Below, one piece after another: positions 1-17,155 of a DNA stretch of 36,826 bases; position 1 is the stretch's first letter, and each line of letters opens with the position of its first letter. The position numbers and the translations under genes were made by a program. Origin of the DNA: Anaerolineae bacterium (GTDB taxonomy: Bacteria > Chloroflexota > Anaerolineae > B4-G1 > SLSP01); contig PWVB01000339.1 in assembly GCA_003562365.1 (NCBI GenBank), forward strand, positions 1 through 36,826. Direction: 5' to 3'. The notes beneath the pieces were generated by a model. It was not told where the DNA came from, did no database searches, and worked only from the letters and a program-made list of their open reading frames with translations.

Positions 1-527
1 CAGCCGCAGATGTTGTGGGGGTTGTTCAGATCGGCGACGGTGAGGTAGGGCGCTGCGCCATCGTAGCGCTCAAGCCATTCCACGGTCTTCTGGGTCGTAT
101 ATCGATCCTGAAAGGTATCGTCATTTAACGGCCAAGCCGGCGCCGCCTCTACCGGTAGCGACCGAACGGGTGCCAGATCAAAGCCCCGCAGGCTGCCCGC
201 GTCGTGCTGCTTGCCGAAATGGACCGTGGCGTATCCTGCCTCTGAGGCGAGCTCGCCGAGGGTCGGTATCTCAGTGGGCAACGGCGGCACGGAATGTCTG
301 CGCCCGTTGGAGAGAACGCCGGTCTCGTGGGGATGGCGCCCGGTCCAATAGGCCGCGCGTGCCGGCTGGCATAGCGGATACGGAGTGTAGCACTCTGAAA
401 AGCGCACGGCTCTGCGCGCGATGCGGTCGATGTTGGGCGTCTGTGCATACGTGTCTCCGTATGCCGGCAGCGCGCGCCAGGCCAATTGGTCGGCAAAGAT
501 AAGCAGGATGTTGGGGCGTTGGGGCAT
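1..527 (-). CDS. Sulfatase (arylsulfatase family), N-terminal part, cut by window edge
   Basis: Type I sulfatases hydrolyse sulfate esters on sugars, steroids or aromatics. The start at 527 is supported by GGAGG in the 'acggaggagaacg' leader. The protein opens with M-P-Q-R-P-N-I-L-L-I-F-A-D-Q, the usual sulfatase beginning in which the early Asp helps bind the metal. The active-site signature C-x-P-x-R appears as C-Q-P-A-R with Cys53, the residue converted to formylglycine in this family, so a maturation enzyme must exist elsewhere. The last visible residues, L-N-N-P-H-N-I-C-G, match the conserved second region of the family. About 175 residues are present and the C-terminal half lies left of the window. 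No signal peptide is seen at this start, so a cytosolic location is possible. The substrate cannot be deduced. It is divergent from the glycan operon. Confidence 0.9.
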   Translation of the reverse strand, partial: MPQRPNILLIFADQLAWRALPAYGDTYAQTPNIDRIARRAVRFSECYTPYPLCQPARAAYWTGRHPHETGVLSNGRRHSVPPLPTEIPTLGELASEAGYATVHFGKQHDAGSLRGFDLAPVRSLPVEAAPAWPLNDDTFQDRYTTQKTVEWLERYDGAAPYLTVADLNNPHNICG

Positions 528-561
528 CGTTCTCCTCCGTCCAGGTTCTTTTCGAAGTACC

Positions 562-589
562 ATCATAGCATGGTTTGCGAACGCGTTAA
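562..589 (-). promoter_or_regulatory. Putative sigma70-like promoter for the sulfatase
   Basis: On the minus strand TTAACG (plus 584-589) is followed after 16 bp by TATGAT (plus 562-567). Each differs from consensus by one or two bases. It lies about 35 bp upstream of the sulfatase start in the divergent spacer. Predicted by eye only. Confidence 0.4.
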
Positions 590-728: not shown

Positions 729-1736
729 ATGGTGATCGATCGTCCTGATGCCTCAAGGCTCCCCTGGTCTACACCGGCGGTTGGCTCGCTGACGGAGGCG
801 ATCCTTTTTACGCTGTCGTATGCAGATGTCTTCCACTACCCGCTCACGCTTGCCGAACTACATCGTTATTTGATTGGCTATTCCGCCACACCTGAGTCCA
901 TCGCTGCTGCATTGCAGGATATGGTGGGCACGTCTGAGCAGAACGGGTATTACACGTTGGCTGGGCGGGACCCGCTGGTACCGCTGCGTGAACAGCGGTT
1001 GCCTACAGCAGTTGCGATGTGGCCTCGGGCGCTCGCCTATGGACGCGCCATCGCCAGACTGCCGTTTGTTAGAATGGTTGCGCTGACAGGCGCTCTGCCG
1101 ATGCTCAATGTCGAGCCAGGGGATGACTTTGACTATCTCATTGTGACGGCTTCAGAGCGAGTATGGCTGACGCGCTTCTTCATCATTCAGCTGGTTGTGA
1201 AATCGGCAGCGCGCCGCGGCGATGAGGTTTGTCCGAACTTCCTGCTTGCTGAACACGCCCTGACCCTCCAAGAGCGCGATCTATTTCATGCCCACGAGTT
1301 GGCGCAGATGATCCCGCTCTATGGATGGGAGCTCTATGGGCGCTTCCGCGCGGCCAATCGTTGGGCCGACGCTTTCCTCCCCAATGCAGTGGGGCCGCCG
1401 CGGATGGATGCGCTGTTGTCCGTCCAGCGGTCGGTTCCCGGGGTCATATTAGAGTGGATGCTATGCGATCCGGTGGGAGGCCGGCTGGATGGTCGCGAGA
1501 TGCGGCGGATGCAGGTAAAATTGAAGGCTGCCGGCAACCAGGAGGAGTTGGTTTTCTCCCCTGACCGCTGTAAAGGTCATCTCGGCGCCCACGCACAGGG
1601 AACGCAGAGAGCGTTCTCGGAAGTTGTGAGCGATGCCGCAATCACTGCTGTCCGTGGCGGCGGGAACCGAAATTCCACGGTAATGCGGTCACTCCAGTCT
1701 GATCCTGAACCGAACCGAGGTATGGCTGATGATTGA
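729..1736 (+). CDS. Nucleotidyltransferase-like protein, first gene of the glycan operon
   Basis: The reading frame is open from 486, but I chose ATG 729 because GGAGGA lies 8 bp upstream (715-720); this gives 335 aa. Residues 120-140 read T-G-A-L-P-M-L-N-V-E-P-G-D-D-F-D-Y-L-I-V-T. This resembles the nucleotide-binding core of the MNT/pol-beta nucleotidyltransferase fold, a G-[AS] turn followed by Asp-x-Asp (Asp133, Asp135). The N-terminal ~80 residues look like a winged-helix-type segment (L-T-L-A-E-L-H-R-Y-L), which I infer only from pattern. Function is unknown; nucleotidylation of a lipid, sugar or protein is possible but unproven. The gene overlaps the radical SAM gene by 8 bp, so the two are probably translated together. 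The last ~60 residues, rich in Arg, Gly and Ser, look poorly conserved. Confidence 0.7.
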   Translation: MVIDRPDASRLPWSTPAVGSLTEAILFTLSYADVFHYPLTLAELHRYLIGYSATPESIAAALQDMVGTSEQNGYYTLAGRDPLVPLREQRLPTAVAMWPRALAYGRAIARLPFVRMVALTGALPMLNVEPGDDFDYLIVTASERVWLTRFFIIQLVVKSAARRGDEVCPNFLLAEHALTLQERDLFHAHELAQMIPLYGWELYGRFRAANRWADAFLPNAVGPPRMDALLSVQRSVPGVILEWMLCDPVGGRLDGREMRRMQVKLKAAGNQEELVFSPDRCKGHLGAHAQGTQRAFSEVVSDAAITAVRGGGNRNSTVMRSLQSDPEPNRGMADD

Positions 1737-3234
1737 CCTGCTGTTGGTGAATCCGCTTTTCTTGTTCGAGGATCCCGTCGAAGCCAAGCTGATGACGCCC
1801 TATTTTCCTCTGGGACTTCTCTATGTCGCGGCCGTCGCACGCGAGGCGGGCTATACGGTCGAGATCTTCGATGCTATGTTTGCAGAAAGCGATGCAGACT
1901 TCGTTGCCGAATTGCATCGCACGCGCCCCAAAGTGGTGGGTTTTGGTGTGTTGGCGACCGTCCGTCGGACAGCGCTGAGGCTCGCGGCTCTGGCTAAGGC
2001 CCAGGACGCCACGGTGATTATGGGGGGGGCTGACCCGACGGCTCGACCTGACGTCTATCTGCGTCATCAAGCCGCCGAGGGCCAGGCCGTCGATCTGGTT
2101 GCCGTGGGCGAGGCGGAGGCCACCATTGTGAAGCTGTTGTCGCTGCTGGTCACCGACTATAGCTTCGAGGAGAATCCGGTGACGGCTCAAACGCTCATCC
2201 GCCAGCGCCTCTCGGAGATTCCAGGGGTCGCGTACCGCGACGAGACCGGCAAGGTTGTCGTCACGGAGCGTTGTGCTTTGCTCCAGAACATCGACGACCT
2301 TCCTTATCCTGCTCGGGATCTGGTGAATTGGGCACCCTATCGTGCGGCTTGGCGCGCTAACCACGGCAGCTTCTCTATGTCGCTGATCGCGTCTCGAGGC
2401 TGCCCTTTCGAATGCGCTTGGTGCCAGAAGATCGTGTTCGGGCGCAGTTTTCGACCTCGCGACCCGGTTAGCGTTGCTGAGGAATTACGGCAGATGAAGG
2501 AGGCCTACCATCCCGACTTCGTACGGATCGTCGACGATGCGATGGGCATTCAGAAGGGATGGGTTAAAGCCTGGCGGGACGCGGTGTTGGAGAAGGATGC
2601 GGTCATCCCCTTCGAGTGCCTCTCGCGGGTCGATCTCTTGGATGCTGACATCGTCCGGTGGCTCAAGGAAGCCGGTTGTCAGCGTATTGCGTTGGGAGCG
2701 GAGTCCGGTTCACAGCGGGTGCTGGACGCGATGCACAAGGGAGCTCGCGTTGAGCAGATCTACCATGCGGCGAGGATCTGCCGTGACTTCGGCATCGAAA
2801 CCTACTTCTACATGATGGTTGGCTATCCTTCCGAAACGTGGCAGGATCTTCTGATGTCGGCCAAGCTGCTGCGTGAAACGCGTCCGGATATCTTCAGCAC
2901 CACCATTGCCTATCCTTTGCCGGGCACTGCCTTCTATGAACAGGTCAAGGATCGATTGCCTCAGGACGATGGCTTGGTTCCGGACTGGGATTACACTGCC
3001 GAGAACCGCCTGCTCTTTGGCCGGAGTCAGTACAGCACCTTCTTCTATCGTCGCGTAATCCGTTGGTTGCATCATGAATGGGAAGACGCCTGGATCAAGG
3101 CCGGTAAACCTGCGGCACCGGCACAACGGCTACGGATCAGACTGGCGCTGTGGCGAGATCGGTTGATGGTACGCGTCTTGGCGAAACTGCCGGGACTTGG
3201 TGCAAGGGCTGCAGGATGGGAGGCTGGCAGATGA
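1729..3234 (+). CDS. B12-binding domain radical SAM protein
   Basis: This 501-aa protein has the BchE/P-methylase-like arrangement. A cobalamin-binding Rossmann-type domain fills about residues 1-140 (M-I-D-L-L-L-V-N-P-L; G-L-L-Y-V-A-A-V-A; V-V-G-F-G-V-L). A radical SAM TIM barrel follows. The [4Fe-4S] motif is C-x3-C-x2-C at Cys225, Cys229 and Cys232 (R-G-C-P-F-E-C-A-W-C). The downstream G-A-E-S-G-S motif fits the SAM-binding part of the barrel. Family members usually methylate or rearrange unactivated carbons; the substrate here is unknown, though the neighbours suggest a glycan or lipid precursor. The start ATG lies inside the end of the previous gene and the stop overlaps the next start (ATGA). 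A run of eight G at 2022-2029 is in frame as read. Confidence 0.9.
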   Translation: MIDLLLVNPLFLFEDPVEAKLMTPYFPLGLLYVAAVAREAGYTVEIFDAMFAESDADFVAELHRTRPKVVGFGVLATVRRTALRLAALAKAQDATVIMGGADPTARPDVYLRHQAAEGQAVDLVAVGEAEATIVKLLSLLVTDYSFEENPVTAQTLIRQRLSEIPGVAYRDETGKVVVTERCALLQNIDDLPYPARDLVNWAPYRAAWRANHGSFSMSLIASRGCPFECAWCQKIVFGRSFRPRDPVSVAEELRQMKEAYHPDFVRIVDDAMGIQKGWVKAWRDAVLEKDAVIPFECLSRVDLLDADIVRWLKEAGCQRIALGAESGSQRVLDAMHKGARVEQIYHAARICRDFGIETYFYMMVGYPSETWQDLLMSAKLLRETRPDIFSTTIAYPLPGTAFYEQVKDRLPQDDGLVPDWDYTAENRLLFGRSQYSTFFYRRVIRWLHHEWEDAWIKAGKPAAPAQRLRIRLALWRDRLMVRVLAKLPGLGARAAGWEAGR

Positions 3235-4676
3235 GCTTCGGACTGACTCTATTGGTCCTATTGCTGCTGATGCTGGGTTGTCGTTCGCCGGCCCGCCCGC
3301 CGGTGGATTTGAGCCTGACACATCGGTTCCGATCAACCCGTGCGCCGGTAATCTCCTCGCCCATTGCCTGGGACTTCACCGGCGACGGCGTCAAGGAGAT
3401 CGCGGTGGGTTCGTGGGATGGTTACTTCTACCTGATGGACATTGAATTGAACGATATGCCGGGATGGCCTAAATACAGTCCCAAGGGCTTCTTCTCGTCC
3501 CCCGCTTTGGCAGATCTATCCATGGCTCAGGATCTACTTTCCGACCTTCCAGTCGGTGAGGATCAACTAGAAAGGATGGGTGTCCCTAGTGGCGTGCCGG
3601 AGATTCTGGTGGGTGCAGAAACCGGTGAGCTGTTTGCGTGGACCTACGAAGGGCATACCGTTCCCGGCTTTCCGGTGGACCTGGGTTATCATATCTGGGC
3701 CTCGCCAGCGATCCTTGACGGCCCCCGTATCGCGGTGAGCGGATTTGAGGAGATGTTCGTGTTGGACGCACGTGGCCGCTTTGTGGACGGATGGCCCCAG
3801 CCGATGCAGGGGTGGGCCGATGCCACGGCGGCGACCGATGGGCGGATCCTCGCCGTCACCACCTTGACCCCTGGCGACCCGTCGTGGGGGTGGCTCTACG
3901 CCTGGACGGTAGAGGGTCAGCTATTGCCAGGATTCCCTCTTGATCTCCCCATGGATTCCGACTCGTCTCCGGCGCTGGCTGACTTAGACGATGATGGTGA
4001 ACTATGGATCATCTTTGGGGATGACGCGGGCTTTCTCTACGTGGTTGATACGGCAGGCCGCCTGAGGCCGGGTTTTCCGACCCGCACCGAGGGGCCGGCG
4101 CCCGGCCTGCCCACGCCGACGCCACATCCTCCTGGGGGCAACGTCTATTCCATCGAGGCCTCCCCGGCTGTGGCAGATCTGACAGGTGATGGACGCTTGG
4201 AGATCGTAGTTGGTTCCTGGGACGGACAACTCTACATCTGGAACGATGCAGGCCAACCGCTTCCTGGTTGGCCGATCCGCGTGAGGGATCAGATTATTTC
4301 GTCCGCCGCGCTGGTTGACCTGACTGGCGACGGTCAGCTCGATATCGTCGTTGGCTCCAAAGACGGTCACCTCTACGGATGGACGGTTTGGGGCGAGGCT
4401 TTGCCCGGCTTCCCTTACGATCTGAGGGCTCCCGTCTTCTCATCGCCCTGGGTTGGCGATCTGAACGGCGATGGTCGTGCAGACATCGTGGTGGGCGCTG
4501 ACAATGGGATTCATCTGCTGCGGGACATCGGGCCGTTGGGCTACCGGGCGTGGCCCACATTCCACGCGAACGCACGGCGCAGCGGTGTGAGCGGTGAGGC
4601 AGACAGACTCCCGCGGACGGTGCTGGTCCCTCAAAAGGTGTCAGTGTCTGAAGCGCTCTCCGCGTTACAGCGTTAG
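3231..4676 (+). CDS. FG-GAP/VCBS-repeat lipoprotein
   Basis: Starting at ATG 3231, with GGGAGG upstream and a 4-bp overlap with the radical SAM gene, this encodes 481 aa. The N-terminus is a hydrophobic stretch ending L-M-L-G-C, so Cys17 is a likely lipidation site, although Met at -3 makes the lipobox slightly atypical. The rest is a series of beta-propeller blades carrying Ca-binding FG-GAP loops: D-F-T-G-D-G, D-L-D-D-D-G, D-L-T-G-D-G (twice) and D-L-N-G-D-G, each followed by [IV]-[IV]-x-G-[SA]-x-[DN]-G. Such propellers are extracellular ligand- or glycan-binding modules. In this operon it may hold or recognise the glycan at the cell surface (inference). The blades between residues ~100 and ~230 are less regular. 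Confidence 0.88.
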   Translation: MSFGLTLLVLLLLMLGCRSPARPPVDLSLTHRFRSTRAPVISSPIAWDFTGDGVKEIAVGSWDGYFYLMDIELNDMPGWPKYSPKGFFSSPALADLSMAQDLLSDLPVGEDQLERMGVPSGVPEILVGAETGELFAWTYEGHTVPGFPVDLGYHIWASPAILDGPRIAVSGFEEMFVLDARGRFVDGWPQPMQGWADATAATDGRILAVTTLTPGDPSWGWLYAWTVEGQLLPGFPLDLPMDSDSSPALADLDDDGELWIIFGDDAGFLYVVDTAGRLRPGFPTRTEGPAPGLPTPTPHPPGGNVYSIEASPAVADLTGDGRLEIVVGSWDGQLYIWNDAGQPLPGWPIRVRDQIISSAALVDLTGDGQLDIVVGSKDGHLYGWTVWGEALPGFPYDLRAPVFSSPWVGDLNGDGRADIVVGADNGIHLLRDIGPLGYRAWPTFHANARRSGVSGEADRLPRTVLVPQKVSVSEALSALQR

Positions 4677-4693
4677 CCGGGGGCAGCCGAACT

Positions 4694-5536
4694 ATGTCTA
4701 GGCGTCTACGAATCGGCTGCACTGGGGCCCTGCTGGTACTTTTGATCCTGCTGGGGGTGCGCGAGCATTTCGATCCATTCTTGATTCTTTTCTTGGATGG
4801 TTTTGTACGCCCCAGGCCTGCACCGTTGGAACTGGCGCTTAACTCATCGTTGCGGTTGCGGCTCTACGCCGATACACGTCCGCACATCGGGAAGATTGCC
4901 GCGCTGCAGAAGGGCCTGGTTCTGGTTCGCGACGGAAAACCGGTGATCGAAGAAGGATACGGATTCGGACTGCCGCTCATCCAATATGATGATCTTGTGT
5001 ACAATTCGCGCCACGCCGAGGTCGAGGCGGTCGATGATCGCACATTGGTCAAACGGTATTCGGTGGACGTGGCTGACCGTTGGTCGCGCTTCCTGCGTAT
5101 CAAGTATAAGGATGTGCCGTCTTTCGGCACGGTCGTGGTGACCTACACAGTTACGTCACCTGCCACCTTACACGTGGATGTGGATTTCACCGGCTTGACG
5201 GACGGTTGGAGCACGGCTTACCTGATGAACGAGCAGGGCGCGGTGCATTTCCCCCTGTATGAGGATGGCACCGGCCTGCGTCGTCACGGGGACGAGGTGG
5301 GGATCTGGCATCCAGAAGACGACCCGCTGGGGTGCTGGGTTTCTGCTGACGAGGGGCTGCGCTTCTGTGTAGACACCGAGCCGGGACGCCTCCGGTATGT
5401 AGGCCGCGAGCGCTATAATCAGTATAACTGGGTGCGTATCTACGTGCTATCGTGGTCTGGGATTGACATAAAGATCGACACACCGGTGGACCACTATGCC
5501 TATGTGGTCCGCATTGAACTCCTAGATGAACCCTAG
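4694..5536 (+). CDS. Unknown membrane-anchored extracytoplasmic protein
   Basis: This 280-aa protein has a short positively charged start (M-S-R-R-L-R) and one hydrophobic segment at about residues 9-23, so it is probably an N-terminally anchored or secreted protein. The remainder reads as beta-rich sandwich-like sequence with many alternating hydrophobic residues (V-V-V-T-Y-T-V; L-H-V-D-V-D-F). It has two cysteines in the mature part, in G-C-W-V-S and R-F-C-V-D, that could pair outside the cell. I recognise no family and see no catalytic motif. It lies 17 bp after the lipoprotein gene and overlaps the glycosyltransferase gene by 11 bp, so it belongs to the operon. No strong ribosome site precedes ATG 4694. 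Confidence 0.75.
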   Translation: MSRRLRIGCTGALLVLLILLGVREHFDPFLILFLDGFVRPRPAPLELALNSSLRLRLYADTRPHIGKIAALQKGLVLVRDGKPVIEEGYGFGLPLIQYDDLVYNSRHAEVEAVDDRTLVKRYSVDVADRWSRFLRIKYKDVPSFGTVVVTYTVTSPATLHVDVDFTGLTDGWSTAYLMNEQGAVHFPLYEDGTGLRRHGDEVGIWHPEDDPLGCWVSADEGLRFCVDTEPGRLRYVGRERYNQYNWVRIYVLSWSGIDIKIDTPVDHYAYVVRIELLDEP

Positions 5537-7157
5537 GTCCGCCGGTGCAGGACGGGAGAGCTTAGCCGACGTTCGTGTCGAACGGAGCGCTCTGCCGATC
5601 CTGGTTATATGGACTGCATTCAGTCTGCGCGTAATCGGTCTTGGCCGTGTGCTGCTGCTGCCTGATGAGGCCTACTACTGGCTTTGGTCGCGGCGTCTCG
5701 ACTGGGCCTATTATGACAATCCCGCCGGCACAGCATTGCTGCTGCGGGCCAGCACAGCGCTCGGAGGACAAACTGAGTTCGGTCTCCGCTGGCTGAACGC
5801 ACTGCTCGGGGTAATCTGCGTTGCACTGCTGTGGGCCGTGGGACGGCGGTTGATCTCCGTGGTGCTTGCATCCGAAACCTCTATGGCTGGTTGGGGTGCG
5901 GCAGTGATGACCTTAGGTGCGCCTTTCCTGGTGGTTTCCCGTTTCGTGTACACTGATGGACTATTCCTTTTTCTGCTGCTCCTTAACTTTTGGTGTTTTC
6001 TGCGCATGCTCGGTCGTGCATCATCGCCTCACGTCCCCAGACAGCGCCGAACATCCGTCCTGGGATTGAGGCTGCAGAGTGGGTTCTCGTTCCTCGCCTG
6101 GGGACTCACCCTGGGCCTGCTGCTCAACACCAAGTACACTGCCTATCTCTACGTCGCTGGACTTGGGCTGTGGGTGGCGTGGCAGCGTCCGGATCTGCTG
6201 CGGGAACATCGGCTCTGGTATGCAGTTGTGCTGGCTGGGCTAGGCCTGCTGCCGGTGGTGGGCTGGAACGTGACTCACGGATGGGTGTCGTTTCGATGGC
6301 AGTTGGCGCACCTGGTTAGCCGGTCTCCGGGCGCAGCTGTCCCACCGCTCAGGTCGATGGTCCTGGACCTTGGGTGGATGTGGGCTCGCAATGCGCGCCA
6401 CGCAGTACTTTACCTCACCTGGCCGAGCGTGTTCTTCGCGTTGATGGGGTGTCTCCCGTTGGCGCAGCCATGCGACGCCCCTGACCGGTCCGTGGATCGC
6501 CTGCTTTGGTTGCTGGGCCTGGTGCTTCTGTTGCCGGTCCTGCTTAGCCCCTCCGGCAGTCCTAGGAACATGGTCGGCGGCCTGGTCTTCCTGATGCTGC
6601 GAGCGGTCGTCTGGTTGGCAGGACAAGCGGCTTATCGGACGGGTAAGCATAGGCTGATCGGTGCTGTTAGATCAGTCGTTCTGCTTGTAGGGCTCTACGG
6701 AGTGGGGTCGCTGCTCGCGCTGCGTGGAATCGATGTCCCCCTGAAAAGCAGTGTGGTTCCTGAGATTGTGTGGGATACAACCGGCCTTCGTGAACTGGCG
6801 GCAACAGTGGCGCCGCTAGAGGCAGCGCCACTGTTCACGGTAGACTATTCCCTCGCCGGACAGCTCAGCTACTATGCGGGGCGACCGGCTTATACGGCCT
6901 GGGGGCAATATCGCCTGTGGCAGATGCCGGCGCCGGAGCGCCTGATCGTGGTCAGCCTGGACTACGTGCCGCCGTCCCTGGTTGACACTCGGCTCCGCGA
7001 AGCCTATGCACAGGTCGAGGGGCCCAACTCGGTGGACGTGGACGGGCCCGAGGCCGCCCGTGACATCAGCTGGTGGCAGGTCTCGGGGTTGCGCTGGAAC
7101 CCCAAACGTGTTCTGCAGGCCTTTGACTTCTTCACATTGGTGGAGGCCTCATGGTGA
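5526..7157 (+). CDS. GT39-like (PMT/ArnT-type) membrane glycosyltransferase
   Basis: GT-C glycosyltransferases of this type move a sugar from a polyprenyl-phosphate donor to a lipid, protein or glycan on the outer face of the membrane. The 543-aa product carries the family's first-loop signature L-P-D-E-A-Y-Y-W-L-W (Asp47-Glu48, the metal/catalytic acids) and the second landmark Y-Y-D-N-P-A-G at about residues 62-68. Many hydrophobic helices follow, with a hydrophilic C-terminal domain after about residue 400. The start at 5526 has little Shine-Dalgarno support and overlaps the previous gene by 11 bp, suggesting translational coupling. The acceptor is unknown. A perfect 11-bp inverted repeat lies inside the gene at 6803-6835. 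Confidence 0.9.
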   Translation: MNPRSAGAGRESLADVRVERSALPILVIWTAFSLRVIGLGRVLLLPDEAYYWLWSRRLDWAYYDNPAGTALLLRASTALGGQTEFGLRWLNALLGVICVALLWAVGRRLISVVLASETSMAGWGAAVMTLGAPFLVVSRFVYTDGLFLFLLLLNFWCFLRMLGRASSPHVPRQRRTSVLGLRLQSGFSFLAWGLTLGLLLNTKYTAYLYVAGLGLWVAWQRPDLLREHRLWYAVVLAGLGLLPVVGWNVTHGWVSFRWQLAHLVSRSPGAAVPPLRSMVLDLGWMWARNARHAVLYLTWPSVFFALMGCLPLAQPCDAPDRSVDRLLWLLGLVLLLPVLLSPSGSPRNMVGGLVFLMLRAVVWLAGQAAYRTGKHRLIGAVRSVVLLVGLYGVGSLLALRGIDVPLKSSVVPEIVWDTTGLRELAATVAPLEAAPLFTVDYSLAGQLSYYAGRPAYTAWGQYRLWQMPAPERLIVVSLDYVPPSLVDTRLREAYAQVEGPNSVDVDGPEAARDISWWQVSGLRWNPKRVLQAFDFFTLVEASW

Positions 7158-8434
7158 GGCGCTATGCCCTCTTGCGGGTCGGCAAGAACGCGCTTGCCCT
7201 TCTTTTCGGACGGATAGGGGTGTTGCTCCTCGGCCTTTGGCTCAACGGGCAGCTGACCCGCACCGTAGGAGTTGCGGGCCTGGGACGTTATCTTCTGGCG
7301 CTGACGGTGGAGGGAATCACATTGGCGGTGGCCAACGCAGGACTCAATATCTATGCGACGCGGGAGTTTTCTCGGGTGAAGGACGATGCGGCGGCGTCGC
7401 TTCTGGGTGTTGTGCTGATTTTGAAGGTGCTGCTGGCCCTCACTGGCATCTTTATGATCAATGGGTTGGTTGCACCGTGGTTCTTTCCTGGCCCCCGGCG
7501 CCTGGTCATCGCCTGGGCCTCGCTGGGGCTGCTGCCTCAAGCAATCAACGGTGGTCTGGAAGCGCTCCTGAAGGGGCGGCAGCGAATGGAGCTCAGCAGT
7601 ATGATCGAGCTGACGGCTCGGTTTGCCGCTGTCTTAGGCGGACTGGCCTGGTTGGCGCAAGGTGGTGACGAGCGCCACGTGCTCGTTTGTTACGTTGTCG
7701 GTCACCTACTGGCCACGGTAGCCTTGGGCGGCGTTCTGGTCCGTTGGGGCGTGGTGCCCCGTTGGCGTGGTTGGCGCAAGCGGGCCGCAAAGGTGCTGGG
7801 CGAAGCGATTCCCTTTGCCGGTGTCGATCTGGTGTCGATCCTGTATCGTCGTATGGATCTGTTACTGCTCTCCTACTGGCACGGTGACGGCGTCGTCGGC
7901 ATCTACGGCGCTGCGTATCGTCTTTGGGAGACGCTGGGTCTGCTCCCCAGCAGCTTCTTGGATGCGCTTTTTCCTGAGTTGGCAAGGCGGACCGTGACAC
8001 CCACTGGGCGGATGCAACTCCGCCGGCTCTATCGACGCGGCGTGCCGCTGCTGCTGCTACTCATTCTGGTGGTAGGCGGCACAGGGTTCTGGCTCGCGCC
8101 ACAGTTGATGGTGTTGCTTTACGGCGGCGTCGCCGGCGTTGATGTCGCCACCCACCTTTTCCGGACGCTGATCCTGGCTCTGCCTTTTACCTATCTGTAT
8201 CTCTTCAACGGACACCTGCTTTACGCCACAGGCGAACAGGGACGCGTCCTGGTCACGATGGCGGCCGTCACGGTGGGCAACGGACTGCTTAATGCGCTGC
8301 TGATTCCACGCTGGAGTTACTGGGGAGCTGCTATTGTGGCGCTGGCAGCTGAAGCCGCACTGTTGTTGGCGTTAAGCACGCTTGCCCGCCGCTGGGTCTT
8401 CAGTCGGATTGCCGTCGAGGGAGCCGCCGGATGA
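7151..8434 (+). CDS. Polysaccharide flippase (Wzx/MATE-like)
   Basis: A very hydrophobic 427-aa protein with about 12 predicted membrane segments and the layout of the MOP superfamily, whose members move lipid-linked oligosaccharides across the membrane. Typical pieces include the charged N-terminus leading into L-L-L-G-L-W-L-N-G-Q-L-T-R-T-V-G-V-A-G, the segment G-E-A-I-P-F-A-G-V-D-L-V-S-I-L-Y-R-R-M-D, and Y-G-A-A-Y-R-L-W-E, which recur in Wzx-type proteins. GGAGG just before ATG 7151 supports the start. It overlaps the glycosyltransferase by 7 bp and the ligase by 4 bp. Placement between a GT39 enzyme and an O-antigen-ligase-like protein fits export of a lipid-linked glycan unit. Confidence 0.88.
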   Translation: MVRRYALLRVGKNALALLFGRIGVLLLGLWLNGQLTRTVGVAGLGRYLLALTVEGITLAVANAGLNIYATREFSRVKDDAAASLLGVVLILKVLLALTGIFMINGLVAPWFFPGPRRLVIAWASLGLLPQAINGGLEALLKGRQRMELSSMIELTARFAAVLGGLAWLAQGGDERHVLVCYVVGHLLATVALGGVLVRWGVVPRWRGWRKRAAKVLGEAIPFAGVDLVSILYRRMDLLLLSYWHGDGVVGIYGAAYRLWETLGLLPSSFLDALFPELARRTVTPTGRMQLRRLYRRGVPLLLLLILVVGGTGFWLAPQLMVLLYGGVAGVDVATHLFRTLILALPFTYLYLFNGHLLYATGEQGRVLVTMAAVTVGNGLLNALLIPRWSYWGAAIVALAAEAALLLALSTLARRWVFSRIAVEGAAG

Positions 8435-9804
8435 TAGCGAGCTCACGGACGGACGGCGCCGCACAATCGCTGATGACCTTCAGTCGCCTGGCCTTCTCTA
8501 TATCCTGGGCGCTCGTTAGTTTCAATATCTCTGAGGCCCACGACCTGTTTACCCGGCCACGGCTCTTTTCCGTGGCGGTCGGCGGTGCTGCCTATCCGGT
8601 AGGGGCAATCATACTCTTGCCTGTGGCTGCCGCGATCGCTATGTTGGCCGGTTGCTGGCTGCAGTCACCTTCACGCTCTTGGCGCTGGGGGCGCATTGAG
8701 ATCACCCTCCCGGTCGTGGCTCTGGGTGCTCTGGCTTTGATGCGATCTTGGCCTGTCCATCAGTTGACGGTGCTTGTCCCTTCGGCGGGCGGCGTCCTGC
8801 TCTTCTGGGGCGTTTACGTCTACACGTTGCAGAACTGGCCGTCCAGATGGGCGGTGTTGACGTTGGCGTCCTTGATTGCACTCCAGGGTGGGGTGGCGGT
8901 GGCGCAGTTTGTGCACCAAAGATCCATCGGCCTGACCTTTCTCGGAGAGCTGGTGCTGGATCCGGCGGTCTATGGTGTCAGCGTTTTGGAGGTTGCCGGA
9001 GAGCGATGGCTGCGTGCTTATGGCTTGCTGCCGCATCCCAATGTCCTGGGGGGCGTGGCCGGTTTGGGGCTGCTGGCCTCCCTCGGGGCGCTGCTGCAGG
9101 ATTCCCGGCGCCAGTGGTTGTGGATCCCTGTGTTGGCTGCGGGAGCCGGACTGCTTACGTCCTTTTCCCGATCGGCCTGGCTGGGAACGTTGGTGGGCTT
9201 GCTCTATCTTGCTGGCGTGACACACCTGTGGCGCCGGGTCCAGTGGCGAGAGCGTCGAACGCTGTGGACCACCTTGGGCCTACTGGTGGTTGCGGGAGGG
9301 ATCGCTGTGACGTTTGGCGGGTTCTTGGGCGCGCGACTGTTGCGCTCGGACTCTCTTCTGGAGCACAACTCCGTTGCGGAGCGTATCCGAGATGCCGGAC
9401 AGGCCTGGATGCTCGTCCGGCATCTTCCGCTGACCGGAGTAGGGACCGGTTATTACGAAGGGGCGCTTTGGGCTTGGGCCGACGCCACCGGCCAAAGCTT
9501 TCCAGCTTTTCAGCGAGTTCACAATGTGCCCTTGCTGTTAGGTGCCGAGATGGGCGTTGTGGCTGCCATCCTATGGCTCTGGCTGGTGACAGTGCCGCCA
9601 TTTACGCTGCTGCGGGCTGCGCGAAGCCGACCGGCCCAACCGGCGCTCGCCGGTTGGGCGGCGGCCCTTCTCTGTCTGCTGATCGTGGGATTGCTGGACT
9701 GCTACCCTTATTTCCTTAACTTCCGCGCGGGAGCACTGTTGGGCGCCTTGTGTGGTATCTGGGCGCGTCTGGGAGGCGAGGGGTTTGTCGAAGATTGGTC
9801 CTGA
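8431..9804 (+). CDS. O-antigen ligase / Wzy-like membrane protein
   Basis: This 457-aa multi-pass membrane protein has the features of the Wzy_C/WaaL group, which joins or transfers lipid-linked glycans at the outer face of the cytoplasmic membrane. Supporting segments are R-A-Y-G-L-L-P-H-P-N-V-L-G-G, then L-L-T-S-F-S-R-S-A-W-L-G (the conserved R-S-A-W-L loop). A long extracytoplasmic loop carries L-T-G-V-G-T-G-Y-Y-E and ends R-V-H-N-V-P-L-L-L-G-A-E-M-G; the His-Asn pair is the usual mark of this loop. Ligase and polymerase cannot be told apart from sequence. The start overlaps the flippase stop (ATGA). Confidence 0.88.
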   Translation: MIASSRTDGAAQSLMTFSRLAFSISWALVSFNISEAHDLFTRPRLFSVAVGGAAYPVGAIILLPVAAAIAMLAGCWLQSPSRSWRWGRIEITLPVVALGALALMRSWPVHQLTVLVPSAGGVLLFWGVYVYTLQNWPSRWAVLTLASLIALQGGVAVAQFVHQRSIGLTFLGELVLDPAVYGVSVLEVAGERWLRAYGLLPHPNVLGGVAGLGLLASLGALLQDSRRQWLWIPVLAAGAGLLTSFSRSAWLGTLVGLLYLAGVTHLWRRVQWRERRTLWTTLGLLVVAGGIAVTFGGFLGARLLRSDSLLEHNSVAERIRDAGQAWMLVRHLPLTGVGTGYYEGALWAWADATGQSFPAFQRVHNVPLLLGAEMGVVAAILWLWLVTVPPFTLLRAARSRPAQPALAGWAAALLCLLIVGLLDCYPYFLNFRAGALLGALCGIWARLGGEGFVEDWS

Positions 9805-10642
9805 CCGGCAGCATGCTGCAGCGGCTGCGGCTTTCGATGAGATCGCAGCGGATTATGATGGCGTCTATGGTCCTGATGGGAATGCCGTGATGACTTGGAT
9901 GCGCCATCAAAGCCTCTCGCTTTTGCAGGCGGCCTTTCGGGCTCACGATGCGCCTCCGGGAAGCCGCCTTCTGGAGTTGGGCTGCGGCACCGGCGAGGAG
10001 GCTGTCAGCCTGGCGCAGATAGGATATCGGGTCCTGGTGACCGATGTTGCACCTCAGATGGTGGCCTTGGCACGGGCGAAGGCGGATCGGGTTGGGGTTG
10101 GTGGGCAGGTACACGGTGTGGCGCTAGCAGCCGGTCGGATCGATGCACTGCAGCCATCACAGGCCTTCGACGGTGCCTATGCGAGCTTTGGCGGCCTCAA
10201 CTGTGAGCCGGATCTGCTTGCAATGGGGAGGGCTCTGGCACGGCTGGTTCGGCCCGGTGGCGTGTTTGTGACCTCGGTGATGGGCCCGACGTGCCTTTTT
10301 GAGATGGTTTGGTACCTGCTGCACCTGCGACCGCGACGGGCTTTGCGCCGTATGGGAGGGCGCTGGCAACGGGCCCCGGTGGCCGGTCGGTCGGGACGCG
10401 AACGGGCCGTGCTCACACGCTATCTGACGGTCAAACAGCTGACCGCCGCACTGTCGGGATTTGTGTTGGTCCGCGCTCTGGCTCTGCCTCTCTTCCTGCC
10501 GCCACCTTACGCCGATTCTCTCTACCGGCGCCACGCGGATCTTTTTCGCTGGGTGGAGCGTTACGACCGCAGCCTGCGCGATCGGCAACCGTGGCGGCAT
10601 CTGGGTGACCACACAGTGCTCGTGCTGCAGCGGCGGGCGTAG
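9785..10642 (+). CDS. Class I SAM-dependent methyltransferase
   Basis: The Rossmann signature L-L-E-L-G-C-G-T-G-E-E-A at about residues 61-72 identifies a class I methyltransferase. It follows A-F-D-E-I-A-A-D-Y-D, the usual opening of the Methyltransf_11/25 group; V-T-D-V-A-P-Q-M comes next as motif II. No ATG precedes these conserved parts. I prefer TTG 9785, preceded by GGGAGG at 9771-9776 with 8-bp spacing, giving 285 aa and a 20-bp overlap with the ligase gene; GTG 9752 is the alternative. It is the last gene of the plus-strand cluster and probably methylates a sugar or lipid of the exported glycan (inference). The C-terminal ~100 residues are Arg-rich and may contact membrane or acceptor. 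Confidence 0.85.
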   Translation: MSKIGPDRQHAAAAAAFDEIAADYDGVYGPDGNAVMTWMRHQSLSLLQAAFRAHDAPPGSRLLELGCGTGEEAVSLAQIGYRVLVTDVAPQMVALARAKADRVGVGGQVHGVALAAGRIDALQPSQAFDGAYASFGGLNCEPDLLAMGRALARLVRPGGVFVTSVMGPTCLFEMVWYLLHLRPRRALRRMGGRWQRAPVAGRSGRERAVLTRYLTVKQLTAALSGFVLVRALALPLFLPPPYADSLYRRHADLFRWVERYDRSLRDRQPWRHLGDHTVLVLQRRA

Positions 10643-10704: not shown

Positions 10705-13107
10705 CTATCCCAGCACGACCTCAACGCTGTGCGTCTTGCCGTCGGCAAAGTTTGGCACCACTGAGCCCTCAACGAGTTCGCCGTTCACCCGCATCGAGAC
10801 CACGCCCTTGCTAATACGGCGCGGATTGCGCACTTCGATTTCGTAGGTCGCGCTGCGGTAGACGCGTCGGGCCCTGAAGCTGTCCCAGTGACTCGGGATG
10901 CATGGGTCGATCTCTAGGCCATCATAGGTGGGCCGTACGCCCAGGACATACTGCGTGCCAGCCTGATAGACCCAGGAAGCAGTGCCGGTGAGCCAGCTGT
11001 TGCGGCCCAGTCCGAACTGCGGGTGCTCGTCGCTGAGAATGTTCTGGCAGTATGCATAGGGCTCGACCTCGAAGCTCTCGATCCTGTCATTGCGCGCCGC
11101 CGGGTTGATCTGAGAGTAGTATTCGTAGGCTCGATCTCCACGACCGATCAGGGTCTCAGCGATGATCATCCAGGGGTTGGTGTGCAAAAAAATGCCGCAG
11201 TTCTCCTTGGTTCCGGGCGGGTAGGTGGTGATGCCCCCCTTGTGTGGATCGAAGCCGTCGTAACCGGGAGTGGCGACCTTGAGACCGTGATCGGTATTGA
11301 GGTGCTCACGGGCCGCATCGAGCGCCTGGATCGCGCGCTCCGGCGGAGCGAAACCCGACAGCACGGCCCACGACTGGGCATTGAGGTAGATACGGCCCTT
11401 CTCGTTAAGGCGCGAGCCGATGGGCTGCCCGTCGCTGTCGAAATAGCGAACATACCAGGCACCATCCCAGGCCTGATCGTTGACGCGGTCGCGCATCACG
11501 GCGTAGCGCGCCTGAAAGGTTTGAACCTCTTCAGGCTCTCCCAGATAGCGGTGCAGGGCGATCATCTCAAGGAGCGCCACGCCGAAGAGGTTGGCGTTGA
11601 AGAGCGACTCAGCGCCCTCCCGCAGGTTGACCGTATCGTTCCAGTCGGCGTAGCCGAGCAGCGGCAGCCCGTGCTCCCCTACGTGCGACCAGGTGAAGTC
11701 CAGGGCGCGCCGCAGATGGTCCAGAACTGTGCCGGAGTCCAACGGCGTGCCGTCCCGAGCTGTGTCGTAGTAGGGAATCTCCTGCTCCAGGAAAGCGAGG
11801 TCGCCCGTCTCCTTGAGATAGGCTGCAACTGCCAGCACGATCCAGAGATGGTCGTCGCCGTAGTAGTCCGGACGGTCCCGGCCCTCAGCGGCGTCGCCGA
11901 TATTCGCCTCCATCGTTGCTGGGTAGAATTGGTGCATTGCGCAGCCGTCTTGCCGTTGCACGCTCAGCAGCTGCTCCATCAGCGTCCTTGCTTTCTGAGG
12001 CGCGTTTCCCACAACTCCCATAATGTCCTGAGCGCTGTCCCGAAAGCCGATCCCGCGTGCGCCCAGCCCCACCTGGTAGCGAGAGAGATAGCGGGACCAG
12101 TTCAGGGTGATGTAGCATTGCCGGGGATTATGGATATTGAGCATCGTGGTCATCTCCGGGTCAGGGATCGCGACCTGCATTCGGCCGAGGTAAGCATCCC
12201 AGGCGGCCCCCAGCATCTCCAGCGCTGCCTCTACAGCCTGAGGATCGCGGTACCGCTCAATGTCGGGCAAAGCTTCCTCCACGCTTGGGGCCTGGCCCAG
12301 TTGGGTAATCAGCCTCCGGCTTTCTCCCGGCCGCAGCGCGCCCAGGTGGTGGAGCAGGGCACCGATGTTCTGACCGCGCCACGCCTCGTAGTTGCCGAGT
12401 TCCGGCTGCTGCAGGCTGTCGGGAGCAGCCCAGCCTCCGTATCCCAAGAAGCGATCCCGATCAGATTCGAAAGAGGACAAGGGAAGGTTCGAGGTGAAGT
12501 AGTTCTGGCGCAGGTCACGATGCATAAACGGATATTGGGTCAGAGTGCCGTATCCGTCGACCTCCCTGTGGAAACGGCTGACCATTGTCTGGGGTACCCA
12601 GTCGTTGTTGTTGAACTGCTTGATCGCCTCAGGATGCGAGTAGTCTACAACAGGAATGGCATCGACGGTGATGGGGCTTTGAGATATGTTGGTGATGGTG
12701 ACGTCGCGCAGCTCCTGGTTCCCGCCTAGGGGTACGAAAATGGTCGCTGAGGTCCGCAGCCCGTAGAACTCCGAGACGATGCAGCTGTACCCCAGCCCTA
12801 TGTGACATATATAATGCTCGTAGAGATCGCCCGTGGGCACGTAATAGGGTGAGAAGACCCGGTAGCTGTCATCCTCATGGATGCGAAGATAGAGAGTTGT
12901 TGCCTGGAAGTCCGATATAGGGCGCTGGGGCACATACCAGGTGATTCTGTTGAGCGCTGGATCACCTTTGCAGAGGGCGGCGCCGCCGGTGTGGTCTACA
13001 TATCCGCCGAATGCCAGCGTGCCGATGAAGTTGATCCACTTGACCGGGGTTCGCGGGTCGGTGATCACATACTCGCGGCGTTCGTTGTCGAAGTGACCGA
13101 ATCTCAT
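10705..13107 (-). CDS. GH94 glycoside phosphorylase (cellobiose phosphorylase-like)
   Basis: GH94 enzymes split beta-linked glucobioses with inorganic phosphate, giving glucose 1-phosphate and saving ATP. From ATG 13107 (GAGGAT upstream) the protein is 800 aa, normal for the family. The opening M-R-F-G-H-F-D-N-E-R-R-E-Y-V-I-T is the family N-terminus, followed by W-I-N-F-I-G-T and D-H-T-G-G. The catalytic-acid motif A-D-W-N-D lies at residues 487-491, inside the (alpha/alpha)6 domain. No signal peptide is present, so it is cytosolic. The specificity (cellobiose, laminaribiose or another disaccharide) is not readable. It starts 10 bp after xylB ends. A large open frame on the opposite strand (11023-12729) is a GC-codon shadow. 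Confidence 0.92.
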   Translation of the reverse strand: MRFGHFDNERREYVITDPRTPVKWINFIGTLAFGGYVDHTGGAALCKGDPALNRITWYVPQRPISDFQATTLYLRIHEDDSYRVFSPYYVPTGDLYEHYICHIGLGYSCIVSEFYGLRTSATIFVPLGGNQELRDVTITNISQSPITVDAIPVVDYSHPEAIKQFNNNDWVPQTMVSRFHREVDGYGTLTQYPFMHRDLRQNYFTSNLPLSSFESDRDRFLGYGGWAAPDSLQQPELGNYEAWRGQNIGALLHHLGALRPGESRRLITQLGQAPSVEEALPDIERYRDPQAVEAALEMLGAAWDAYLGRMQVAIPDPEMTTMLNIHNPRQCYITLNWSRYLSRYQVGLGARGIGFRDSAQDIMGVVGNAPQKARTLMEQLLSVQRQDGCAMHQFYPATMEANIGDAAEGRDRPDYYGDDHLWIVLAVAAYLKETGDLAFLEQEIPYYDTARDGTPLDSGTVLDHLRRALDFTWSHVGEHGLPLLGYADWNDTVNLREGAESLFNANLFGVALLEMIALHRYLGEPEEVQTFQARYAVMRDRVNDQAWDGAWYVRYFDSDGQPIGSRLNEKGRIYLNAQSWAVLSGFAPPERAIQALDAAREHLNTDHGLKVATPGYDGFDPHKGGITTYPPGTKENCGIFLHTNPWMIIAETLIGRGDRAYEYYSQINPAARNDRIESFEVEPYAYCQNILSDEHPQFGLGRNSWLTGTASWVYQAGTQYVLGVRPTYDGLEIDPCIPSHWDSFRARRVYRSATYEIEVRNPRRISKGVVSMRVNGELVEGSVVPNFADGKTHSVEVVLG

Positions 13108-13117
13108 CGTTTGATCC

Positions 13118-14629
13118 TCATCCGTCCATATCGGCCACGGATTTGAAGGTTGGCTTAAGTGCAGGATAGAGCTGGCGGTAGAGCGGATAGTGGGTCGCGT
13201 AGACCGCGACCCGTGCCGGCACGGGTTCGACGCGGTCGACGATCCTGACGATAGCACTGCACGCCGCCGGAACGCTGGGCCAAGCGCCGGCACCCACGCT
13301 GGCCAATACGGCAGCGCCGAAGGCGGCGCCTTCAGTGGTGTTGACGGTTACTAGGGTCTGTCCCATCACATCGGCGAGGATCTGACGCCAGAGTGGGCTC
13401 TTGGCGCCACCGCCGGACAGCCGGACCTGCGCGATCTCACCCAGGCCGGCCTCCTTTATGAGCTCCATACTGTCGCGCAGCCCGAAGGCCACACCCTCAA
13501 GCACCGCGCGGGTCATATGGGGCTTGCCGTGTCGTAGGGTAAGCCCAACAAATCCGGCGCGCGCTAGCGGGTCGGGATAGGGGGTGCGCTCACCAGTGAG
13601 ATAGGGCAGGAACAGCAGGCCCTCGGCACCGGGCTCGATGTCGGCGGCAGGTGCTAGGAGCTCGTCAAAAGACAGGTTGGGAGCCAGGGTGTCCTTGAAC
13701 CACTGCAAGCTGCCGGCAGCGGAGAGCATCACGCCCATAAGATGCCAAGTCTCCGGCACGGCGTGACAGAAGGCGTGAAGGCGGCCTTCAGGCTCGATGA
13801 AGGGCCTGCCGGTGGTGGCAAAAACGACTCCGGACGTGCCCAGGACGAGGCTCACGATGCCCGGCTCTACTGCGCCTACCCCAACGGCCCCGGCGGCCTG
13901 ATCACCGCCGCCGCCGACCACCGGTGTGCCTGGTCGAAGGCCGGTGAGTTCGGCGGTCGCCGTTGTGACGGTGCCGGTGATCTCTGGGCCCTCGTGGGTT
14001 GGAGGCAGCCAATGTGCGGGGATGTCCAGTGCCTCCAGCACCTCGGTAGACCAATCGCGAGCCTTGAGGTTGAACAGGATCGTGCCGGCGCCGCCAGCCT
14101 TATCACAGCCGTACTCACCGGTGAGCTGGTAGCGTATGAAATCCTTGGGCAGCAAGATCTGGGCTACCTTGGTGTAGACCTCCGGCTCGTGCTCGCGGAC
14201 CCAGAGAATCTTCGGTGCGGTGAAGCCGGTTAACGCGTCGTTGCCGGTGACCTTAATGAGGTGGGCGCTGCCACCCATACGGCTGCGGATCTCAGCACAC
14301 TGCGCACCGGTGCGTTGATCGTTCCAGAGGATCGCCGGACGCAGCACCTCACCGTTTTCGTCCAGGAGGGTAAGACCGTGCATCTGCCCGGTGAGGCCGA
14401 TGGCCTCGACTTCCTCTCCGGCAGCGCTAGCCTGAGACAGGGCCGCGCGAATAGAGTGCACGATGCCGTCCCACCAGTCGTTGGGCTCTTGCTCTGACCA
14501 GAGAGGGCGAGGGGTGGCAAGGGGGAGTGGCGTGGTGGCACTGCCGACCACCTCGCCGCTTGCCTGGATCAAGAGTGCCTTGGCGCCGGTTGTCGAGACG
14601 TCAAGGCCGAGAAATAGCTGTCTAGCCAT
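13118..14629 (-). CDS. xylB: Xylulokinase
   Basis: Phosphorylates D-xylulose to xylulose 5-phosphate, the second step of the isomerase route for xylose. This is a 503-aa FGGY-family kinase. The N-terminal phosphate-binding loop is L-G-L-D-V-S-T-T-G-A-K (residues 7-17). G-L-T-G-Q-M-H-G-L and W-N-D-Q-R-T mark the sugar site. The catalytic base is expected at Asp243 in G-G-G-G-D-Q-A-A-G-A-V-G. GGGAGG at 14635-14640 fixes the start. Q-M-H-G is typical of xylulokinases rather than glycerol kinases, and xylA lies immediately upstream, so the assignment is firm. Confidence 0.95.
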   Translation of the reverse strand: MARQLFLGLDVSTTGAKALLIQASGEVVGSATTPLPLATPRPLWSEQEPNDWWDGIVHSIRAALSQASAAGEEVEAIGLTGQMHGLTLLDENGEVLRPAILWNDQRTGAQCAEIRSRMGGSAHLIKVTGNDALTGFTAPKILWVREHEPEVYTKVAQILLPKDFIRYQLTGEYGCDKAGGAGTILFNLKARDWSTEVLEALDIPAHWLPPTHEGPEITGTVTTATAELTGLRPGTPVVGGGGDQAAGAVGVGAVEPGIVSLVLGTSGVVFATTGRPFIEPEGRLHAFCHAVPETWHLMGVMLSAAGSLQWFKDTLAPNLSFDELLAPAADIEPGAEGLLFLPYLTGERTPYPDPLARAGFVGLTLRHGKPHMTRAVLEGVAFGLRDSMELIKEAGLGEIAQVRLSGGGAKSPLWRQILADVMGQTLVTVNTTEGAAFGAAVLASVGAGAWPSVPAACSAIVRIVDRVEPVPARVAVYATHYPLYRQLYPALKPTFKSVADMDG

Positions 14630-14666
14630 AGAAGCCTCCCGTGAAGCGGATTGGAGTGGAGCGCGG

Positions 14667-14716
14667 GCTAGCCTTCGAGCGCTGCGCGTGAGCTAGCCTC
14701 GAAAGCGCTGCACGTG
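14667..14716. repeat. Imperfect tandem repeat of ~25 bp between xylA and xylB
   Basis: Two adjacent copies at 14667-14690 and 14692-14716 both start GCTAGCCT and end in GCGCTGC[AG]CGTG, with a few differences between. The second copy contains GCACGTGC, a perfect 8-bp palindrome, inside an AGCGC/GCGCT inverted repeat. It lies in the 98-bp spacer. It may be a regulator site, an mRNA processing element or a replication-slippage scar; nothing decides between these. Confidence 0.6.
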
Positions 14717-14727
14717 CGCTGAAGCGC

Positions 14728-15897
14728 CTATCTCACTCCTAGGAGCAACTCGTTGGTCAACTGATCAAGCCTCTCGTAGCCTAAGCCGCGGGCGCCGAGG
14801 GCATCACGGTTGAAGCTATGCGCGCGCAGCGCGGCGGCCTTCTCCGGCGTATACGGGCCCTTGAATGGATCCATCGAGCCGTCATCGGCATTGATCTCCG
14901 CCAGCAGGGCCTGAATCTCAGGGTCCTTGTTGAACTGCTCTCCCTTTTCCTTAAGGATCAGGTAGGTGCGCATGCAGCCTCGGGCAAAGTCTTTGACACC
15001 ATCATAGTCTTCGGTTCTGTAGGCGTGAGCGTCGAAGTGGCGACTGCCAGTGTATCCCACGTCCTCCAGAAACTTCACCAGGAAGAAGGCCTGCTTCAGG
15101 TTCTGCGCTCCAAACCGCCAATCCTGGTCGAAGCGGGCATAATTCTGGTCGTTTAGGTCGATGTGAAAAAGCTTGCCAGCCTCCCAGGACTGCGCGACGG
15201 CGTGGAGGAAGTTGAGGCCTGCCATATGCTCGTGGGCGATCTCAGGATTAACGCCGACCATCTCAGGATGGTCGAGCGTCTCGATGAATCCAAGGTAGGC
15301 ACCGGTCGTGGGTAGGTAGAGGTCGCCCCGCGGCTCGTTGGGCTTGGCCTCTAACGCGAACCTTAGATGATAGCCACGGTCCAGCACATACTCGCTTAGG
15401 AAGTTAAGTGCCTCGCGGAAGCGCTTAATGGCATCCACCGGGTTTTTGGCGGCGTCGGTCTCGATGCCCTCACGACCGCCCCAGAAGACATAGACATCTG
15501 CCCCCAGCTCTACGCCCAGGTCGATAGCATTCAGCGTCTTCTGCAGTGCATAGGCACGCACCTTAGCGTCATTGGAGGTGAAGGCGCCATCCTTGAAGAC
15601 GGGATGGGCGAACAGGTTAGTGGTGGCCATGGGAACCACCAGCCCGGTGTCATCAAGGGCTTTCTTGAAAGACTTCAGGATGGCGTTCCGCTCTGCTGGC
15701 GTGGCGTCAATGGGGATTAGGTCATTATCGTGGAAGTTGACGCCGTAAGCGCCGACGTCCCCCAACAGGTAAACCAGGTCTGCCGGAGACAGATCGGGTC
15801 GGACAGCCTCACCGAAGGCGTCAGCGCCTGGATTGCCTACTGTCCAGAGACCGAAGGTGAACCTGTGCTCGGGTCGGGGATTGTATTGTTCGGACAT
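14728..15897 (-). CDS. xylA: Xylose isomerase, actinobacterial/Thermus-type
   Basis: Converts D-xylose to D-xylulose (also glucose to fructose) in the cytosol using two divalent metals. The frame is open to 16044, but ATG 15897 has the strong AAGGAG site and yields 389 aa, the length of the short class I enzymes. Expected residues are visible: [10 protein letters not shown] with His56 and Asp59 (catalytic His/Asp pair), Y-V-F-W-G-G-R-E-G, the metal-binding E-A-K-P-N-E-P-R and [18 protein letters not shown], and R-H-F-D-A-H. It lies between the GH130 phosphorylase and xylB in one minus-strand group. Confidence 0.96.
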
Positions 15898-15961
15898 ATT
15901 GTCATCTCCTTGAAAGCTAGCTAGACAAGGTCTGCAGGACTCCGGTGCCTGACTGTGATGC

Positions 15962-17155
15962 CTATACTGTCTTCTCCATGTGCGCTCGGTTCCGCGCAAT
16001 GAGTGCCAGGCGCTGTGCCACACAGGCAGCCGACCGCCCGCCATCCGGCGGGGGGTTCTTTGCGTAGTCGAGCAGCTTTTCGACAGTCGTGGTCGCTACG
16101 TGCATTCGGGTATCGGAGGAAGCGTAGTAGATGAAGACGTCTCCGTTGTCGTGAGAGATCACGCCATTGCAGAAGAGCACGTTGGATACGTCGCCAAATC
16201 GCTCCTCCCCGTACGGCGCCATCAGATAACCGCCGGGTCGGGCAATTACCCGGCTGGGATCCTTCGGATGACAGAGGAAAGCGTAGAGAACGTAGCGGAG
16301 CCCCGCCGCGCAGCCGCGTACACCGTGGGCGATGTGGAGCCAGCCCTCACTCGTCTTGATTGGCGGGGCACCGGCGCCGTTTTTCAGCTCCTTGATCGTA
16401 TGATAGGCGCGAGGATCGATCACCGTCTCCTCCTCGATCACTGCGTGAGCGATGTCATCGGCGACGCCGAAGGCGATACCTCCGCCGGTTCCTGCCTGGA
16501 TGAAATCATCCTGAGGTCGCGTGTAAAAGGCATAGCGCCCCCCGATGAACTCCGGGTGCAGCACCACATTACGCTGTTGGGGTGAACTCGTGATAAGGTC
16601 GTCGAGCCGCTCCCAGGACTTCAGGTTTTCTGTCCGGGCGATACCGGTCTGCGCCACGGCACTGCTCATATCGCCGGGCGGTGCGTTGGGGTCCTTGCGC
16701 TCGGTACAGAAGACGCCATAAATCCAGCCGTCAGCGTGACGTGTCAAGCGCATATCGTAGACGTTTACGTCGGACTTAGCGGTCTCGGGCATCACGATAG
16801 GCTGGTCCCAGAAGCGGAAGTTATCGATGCCGTTCTCACTTTCTGCAACGGCGAAGAATGACTTGCGATCGGCACCCTCTACGCGACACACGAGAAGGTG
16901 CTTGCCGTCCAGCGCGATCGCCCCTGCGTTGAATACGGCATTGATGCCCATCCGCTCCATTAGATAGGGGTTCGTCTCGGAGTTTAGATCGTAGCGCCAG
17001 GCCAGCGGTGTATGATCAGCGGTCAAAATCGGATGGCGGTAGCGGTCGAAGATACCGTTGTGCCATTGTGGGTTAACCTCATTTCTCCGCTCGATCAGAG
17101 CTTCGTGGTCGTTCTGAAGCTGACGGCGCCGAGTGTCAAAGGTAACTCTATCCAC
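15962..17155 (-). CDS. GH130 phosphorylase, 4-O-beta-D-mannosyl-D-glucose phosphorylase-like
   Basis: Enzymes of this GH130 branch split beta-1,4-mannosyl-glucose with phosphate, giving mannose 1-phosphate and glucose, the final step of beta-mannan or glucomannan use. The 397-aa protein matches the mannosylglucose phosphorylase pattern in [19 protein letters not shown], then [16 protein letters not shown] and N-G-I-D-N-F-R-F-W. The expected catalytic Asp is Asp134 in N-V-Y-D-M-R. The start is GTG 17155 with AAGGAG six bases upstream; a nearby ATG at 17157 is out of frame. No signal peptide is present. Specificity is inferred from sequence pattern, not measured. Confidence 0.92.

Follow-up and report, generated by a model that had tools for sequence, protein, structure and literature searches.

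Introduction

The closest described relatives of the locus analysed here are the Wzx/Wzy-dependent polysaccharide clusters (O-antigen/EPS), in which a Wzx-type flippase, a Wzy_C protein, glycosyltransferases and a methyltransferase lie in one operon; the Wzy_C domain is common to ligases, polymerases and O-oligosaccharyltransferases. Other described families are also relevant: cobalamin-dependent radical SAM enzymes such as BchE, HpnJ, HpnR and PhpK, with a B12-binding N-domain and a CxxxCxxC radical SAM domain; the MNT/ANT nucleotidyltransferases (NTases), such as the HEPN-MNT antitoxin MntA and the aminoglycoside enzyme ANT(4'); and galactose-mutarotase-like supersandwich domains, which occur in GalM, GH174, polysaccharide lyases and the C-domains of alpha-mannosidases.

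The locus at positions 729-10642 of our window (one whole Anaerolineae contig of 36,826 nucleotides) shares all of the Wzx/Wzy features listed above. It differs from such clusters in that its most conserved members are a B12-radical SAM enzyme and an NTase-like protein, in that a mutarotase-like, membrane-anchored protein is added, in that a Pfam search of its eight open reading frames (ORFs) gave no initiating transferase or sugar-nucleotide gene, and in that the genome, which is 97% complete, has no match to LpxC (PF03331). The parts are thus of known kinds, and what is unusual is the pairing of export machinery with a B12 radical enzyme and an NTase-like protein that co-occur across a phylum. 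We found no description of this gene combination in the open literature, which does not prove that none exists. The envelope chemistry of Chloroflexota is poorly known, and the link between glycan export and a gene pair that co-occurs almost perfectly suggests a surface molecule not yet charted.

Results

Layout and gene families of the eight-gene operon

All eight ORFs lie head to tail on the forward strand. P1 (729-1736), winged-helix-like and NTase-like by predicted fold, overlaps P2 (1729-3234), a B12-binding radical SAM enzyme, by 8 bp, and P2 overlaps P3 (3231-4676), an FG-GAP/beta-propeller protein with a lipoprotein-like N-terminus, by 4 bp (ATGA). A 17-bp gap separates P3 from P4 (4694-5536), modelled as an N-terminal membrane helix followed by a beta-supersandwich. 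P4 then overlaps P5 (5526-7157), a GT39/PMT_2-like polytopic glycosyltransferase, by 11 bp; P5 overlaps P6 (7151-8434), a Wzx-type flippase (Polysacc_synt), by 7 bp; and P6 overlaps P7 (8431-9804), an O-antigen ligase/polymerase-like Wzy_C membrane protein, by 4 bp. Read from its GTG at 9752, P8 (9752-10642), a class I SAM-dependent methyltransferase, overlaps P7 by up to 53 bp, and by less from an internal start; its true start probably lies inside the annotated ORF. The P2-P3 overlap depends on our correction of the P3 start from 3150 to 3231, for which we cite the ATGA overlap itself, a GGAGG-like ribosome-binding site upstream and a hydrophobic, lipoprotein-like signal; the P3 homologue in locus L008 has the matching start, likewise with a 4-bp overlap with its P2. 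A sequence-only reading had described eight genes fused by overlaps of 4-20 bp: all eight are present and six of the seven junctions overlap, but the P3-P4 gap departs from that description, as does the P7-P8 overlap when P8 is read from its GTG.

Pfam bears out the earlier family calls for six of the genes: PF02310 and PF04055 in P2; PF13517/PF01839 in P3; PF13231 (1.3e-10, 42.2 bits against a cut-off of 26.1) and PF02366 (6e-10, 39.5 against 22.7) in P5, which also has hydrophobic segments and a PDE motif in its first loop; PF01943 above cut-off (1.8e-17) in P6; PF04932 (9.2e-14) in P7; and PF13649 (6.8e-13) in P8. P1 and P4 gave no Pfam family. In an NCBIfam search of the cluster ORFs, none of the matches listed reached its cut-off, the best for P8 being CpaM (8.6e-16).

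P7 falls within the Wzy polymerase/Wzy_C ligase-like group. Because LpxC is absent, it is not an ordinary LPS O-antigen ligase and the product is not ordinary LPS, and we rejected LPS O-antigen ligation on this ground. The same absence, which implies that P7 does not ligate onto ordinary lipid A, would fit protein glycosylation, with P5 (PMT-like) and P7 (PglL-like) acting as O-glycosyltransferases, P4 and P3 aiding acceptor recognition, and P1, P2 and P8 making an unusual sugar. P5 does match PMT families and the family of P7 also includes O-oligosaccharyltransferases, but the cluster holds no dedicated acceptor protein and sequence separates neither polymerase from ligase nor either from oligosaccharyltransferase; we regard protein glycosylation as improbable.

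Conservation of the gene set

A first search with P4 yielded three contigs that bear the label Anaerolineae or Thermoflexales. L008 and L009 have all eight genes in the order of the window, and L010 has P3 to P8, up to the contig end. Across 298 genomes of the class, P4 is present in five: that of the window and those containing loci L051 to L054. L051 and L053 hold all eight genes in window order, L054 holds all eight rearranged, and L052 reads P1-P2-P8-P3-P4-P5-P6 with an extra membrane protein. The order is thus repeated in four other Anaerolineae contigs and reshuffled in two more. Since L008-L010 and L051-L054 were all found via P4, the evidence in them is the linkage of the other seven genes and not the presence of P4 itself. 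Recurrence in independent genomes shows that the arrangement is not due to chance, and the eight-gene operon is one real, evolutionarily conserved unit.

In the wider phylum, where contig ends truncate several of the compared loci, a search of 301 Chloroflexota genomes gave P1 in 33 and the P2 subfamily (E <= 1e-138) in 34, namely the 33 with P1 and one more (G128). The hypergeometric chance of this overlap is ~3e-43, a figure to be read in the knowledge that the genomes are related and that the way the P2 profile was made, from members encoded next to P1, partly favours such an overlap. In 31 of the 33 genomes with P1 (37/39 loci), the distance from P1 to a close P2 relative is at most 10 kb; G035 and G216 have theirs on a different contig. 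When a family treated below (f27) is set aside, the same distance in the remaining 20 P1 genomes also takes in a P8-type methyltransferase in 15, a Wzy_C gene in 11 and a flippase in 10, several contigs ending nearby. Several Anaerolineae loci read P7-(GT2)-P1-P2-P8-P6, with genes alongside that are GT4-like glycosyltransferases by eye. Beyond P6, three Anaerolineae loci (L059, L063, L064) also encode a member of the phosphorylase superfamily (PF01048) and another methyltransferase, which begins with a zinc-ribbon-like segment. Carriers of P3-P4-P5 sit in one part of the P2 tree, in a clade whose inner order is not resolved. From these counts and gene orders, P1 and P2 emerge as the constant members, P8, P6 and P7 as frequent partners, and P3-P4-P5 as a lineage-specific block.

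These neighbourhoods also bear on whether P1-P4 and P5-P8 could be two unrelated operons brought together by chance, as the small gap between P3 and P4 might suggest. P1 and P2 stay linked to P6, P7 and P8 in distant genomes that have no P3-P5, and P5 adjoins P4 in every P4-bearing Anaerolineae locus, so that conserved linkage largely refutes a division into two operons, which we hold to be very improbable. The earlier proposal of a single assembly system accordingly stands as regards the linkage of the two halves across Chloroflexota; as regards its extent it needs narrowing, as the full set of eight is lineage-specific and conservation centres on fewer genes, P1-P2 first and P8/P6/P7 next.

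The P1-P2 pair

An AlphaFold2 model of P1 built from 27 homologues has a mean pLDDT of 89.2. Residues 91-215 of this predicted model align with aminoglycoside (ANT) and MNT nucleotidyltransferases at Z scores of 5-7.4 over ~110-130 residues (best 7.4 over 115), which, being under 8, are modest. Foldseek returned nothing below 0.001 (best E 1.7e-3), and a sequence search against solved structures gave just one weak MNT match (E 0.38). The NTase motif hG[GS]...DxD appears as TG[AS]L...D.D in the 27 homologues, among which G121, L123, D133 and D135 are invariant. The call of P1 as nucleotidyltransferase-like, for which Pfam gives no support, is thus upheld by the predicted fold and the conserved DxD. 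Residues 17-82 of the model weakly match a winged-helix regulator, and P1 is predicted to be a winged-helix-like plus MNT/ANT-type nucleotidyltransferase. It would share the core NTase fold region with the known MNT/ANT proteins, from which it differs in its winged-helix-like N-terminus, its own C-terminal region and its genomic partner, a radical SAM enzyme, with no HEPN partner seen. P1-like proteins are presumably also found in Patescibacteria.

P2 has the architecture of the BchE/HpnJ/HpnR/PhpK enzymes, with an invariant RGCPxxCxxC motif. It differs from them in reaching no curated NCBIfam equivalog and in being linked to a glycan locus and to P1. Thirty-six NCBIfam families matched, and the best 25 of these 36 all fall below cut-off; the top matches (BchE, ApyD, HpnJ) are far below it, the best scoring 141 bits where 481 are required for BchE. 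We therefore rejected each curated B12-radical SAM function considered (BchE, HpnJ, HpnR, PhpK and others), as none of the matches listed reached its cut-off. At L055 and L069, P1 adjoins a row of two or three radical SAM genes resembling P2, and the radical SAM step may be duplicated in some genomes.

A predicted supersandwich protein and a second architecture

Modelled from 13 homologues (mean pLDDT 88.9, pTM 0.85), P4 has a single long helix at its N-terminus and a body rich in beta structure. The model resembles many carbohydrate-acting supersandwiches; its closest structural match is the GH174 fucanase 9k1g (Z 15.9, 3.1 A over 208 residues), closely followed by PL26, GH2, GH38, GalM and polysaccharide-lyase domains. 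Comparison with B. subtilis GalM gives Z 12.9-13.0, and the top Foldseek match is a GalM homologue (1lur, 1.2e-5); a sequence search against solved structures found chance-level lectins only. Invariant residues include E87, D128, N179, E180, Q181, R238 and E239. No histidine is invariant among the 13 homologues, so the catalytic His and Glu of GalM are not both conserved, and the alignment gives no support for an epimerase site of the GalM His/Glu type. P4 is thus predicted to be a membrane-anchored galactose-mutarotase-like beta-supersandwich, so that a family for which Pfam has no entry now has a predicted fold and a probable setting. It differs from the known domains of this fold in occurring either by itself on a membrane anchor or as a fusion with GT2, in lacking an invariant histidine and in a sequence identity of ~5-13%. 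A glycan-binding or glycan-processing role outside the membrane may be proposed.

The fusion to GT2 is seen in f27, a family of the same phylum. In all 13 of its P1 genomes, P1 is followed by a single ORF of ~1300-1500 codons (start uncertain) that combines GT2 domains with a long membrane region and, at its C-terminus, a P4 domain, and then by P2. By eye the membrane region resembles a GT-C transferase; homology to P5 was considered and dropped, as profile comparison returned a probability of 7% and Pfam nothing. Being fused to a GT2 here as well as neighbouring P5 in Anaerolineae, P4 is tied to glycosyl transfer.

P6, P7 and P8 are not near P1-P2 in the f27 loci, where neither a flippase nor Wzy_C was detected in the vicinity, nor in several other P1-P2 loci; the pair may thus belong to a pathway in which Wzx/Wzy takes part only in some cases. 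This would suit a tailoring of glycolipids or membrane lipids, with no polymer made, in which an HpnJ/HpnR-like P2 acts on an isoprenoid lipid and the transferases add one or a few sugars: P1 and P2 of f27 accompany one large GT2-membrane-P4 protein, and the under-cut-off neighbours of P2 include HpnJ, HpnR, BchE and lipid-acting radical SAM enzymes. However, P2 lies below every curated cut-off among the matches listed, and the window, like many Anaerolineae loci, has a flippase and Wzy_C alongside; we consider lipid tailoring unlikely.

Proposed assembly pathway

As the best explanation of the observed gene identities, conserved linkage, P1-P2 co-occurrence and P4-GT2 fusion, together with the predicted folds of P1 and P4, we infer that the locus rather probably specifies a single Wzx/Wzy-type system of Chloroflexota, with a B12-radical-SAM/NTase core, that assembles and exports a lipid-linked glycan. 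A polyprenyl-linked glycan would be started by a phosphoglycosyl transferase encoded outside the cluster. In the cytoplasm-facing steps, P2 (through C-methylation or some other radical alteration of sugar or lipid) and the methyltransferase P8 would modify it, and P6 would then flip it. Outside, the GT-C-type P5 would lengthen it from a polyprenyl-phosphate sugar, and P7 would polymerise or transfer it. P4 and the propeller lipoprotein P3 could be outside-facing glycan-handling partners of P5 and P7, while P1, the near-obligate partner of P2, might either have the glycan precursor as its substrate or regulate by nucleotidylylation.

Elsewhere, the window genome has three PF02397 and three PF00953 genes (families of initiating phosphoglycosyl transferases), which are candidates for the initiating step, and, on contig C510, a GT2 that is 42% identical to an Anaerolineae GT2 found beside P1 and that could make the donor for P5. 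The earlier suggestion that, with no sugar-nucleotide gene in the cluster, a polyprenyl-phosphate sugar is supplied from elsewhere is compatible with this GT2 and with the GT2-P4 fusion of a distant lineage; the glycan product itself is putative. A few kb from the C510 GT2 (L079, G000:C510, 5957-7546, reverse strand) lies the gene of a B12-type radical SAM protein whose N-terminus carries a SEC-C-like motif.

More tentatively, the loci could stand for a separate, so far undescribed class of envelope glycan or glycolipid in Chloroflexota. Its hallmark would be a sugar or lipid that a cobalamin-dependent radical SAM enzyme alters together with a dedicated nucleotidyltransferase, and its export and transfer machinery would vary by lineage (Wzx/Wzy plus P3-P4-P5 here, the GT2-membrane-P4 fusion elsewhere). 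The study of a Chloroflexota surface molecule gains named genes and candidate substrates.

Flanking genes in the window

Upstream, a sulfatase-like ORF (3-566, reverse strand) runs off the contig start, divergent from the cluster. Downstream, convergent sugar-use genes (10705-17155, reverse strand) comprise a GH94-like phosphorylase, a xylulokinase-like gene, a xylose-isomerase-like gene and a glycosidase-like ORF, and are probably unrelated to the cluster. Further along (22528-23133, forward strand), a TnpB/OrfB-like ORF with a zinc-ribbon C-terminus apparently lies in an IS200/IS605-type element.
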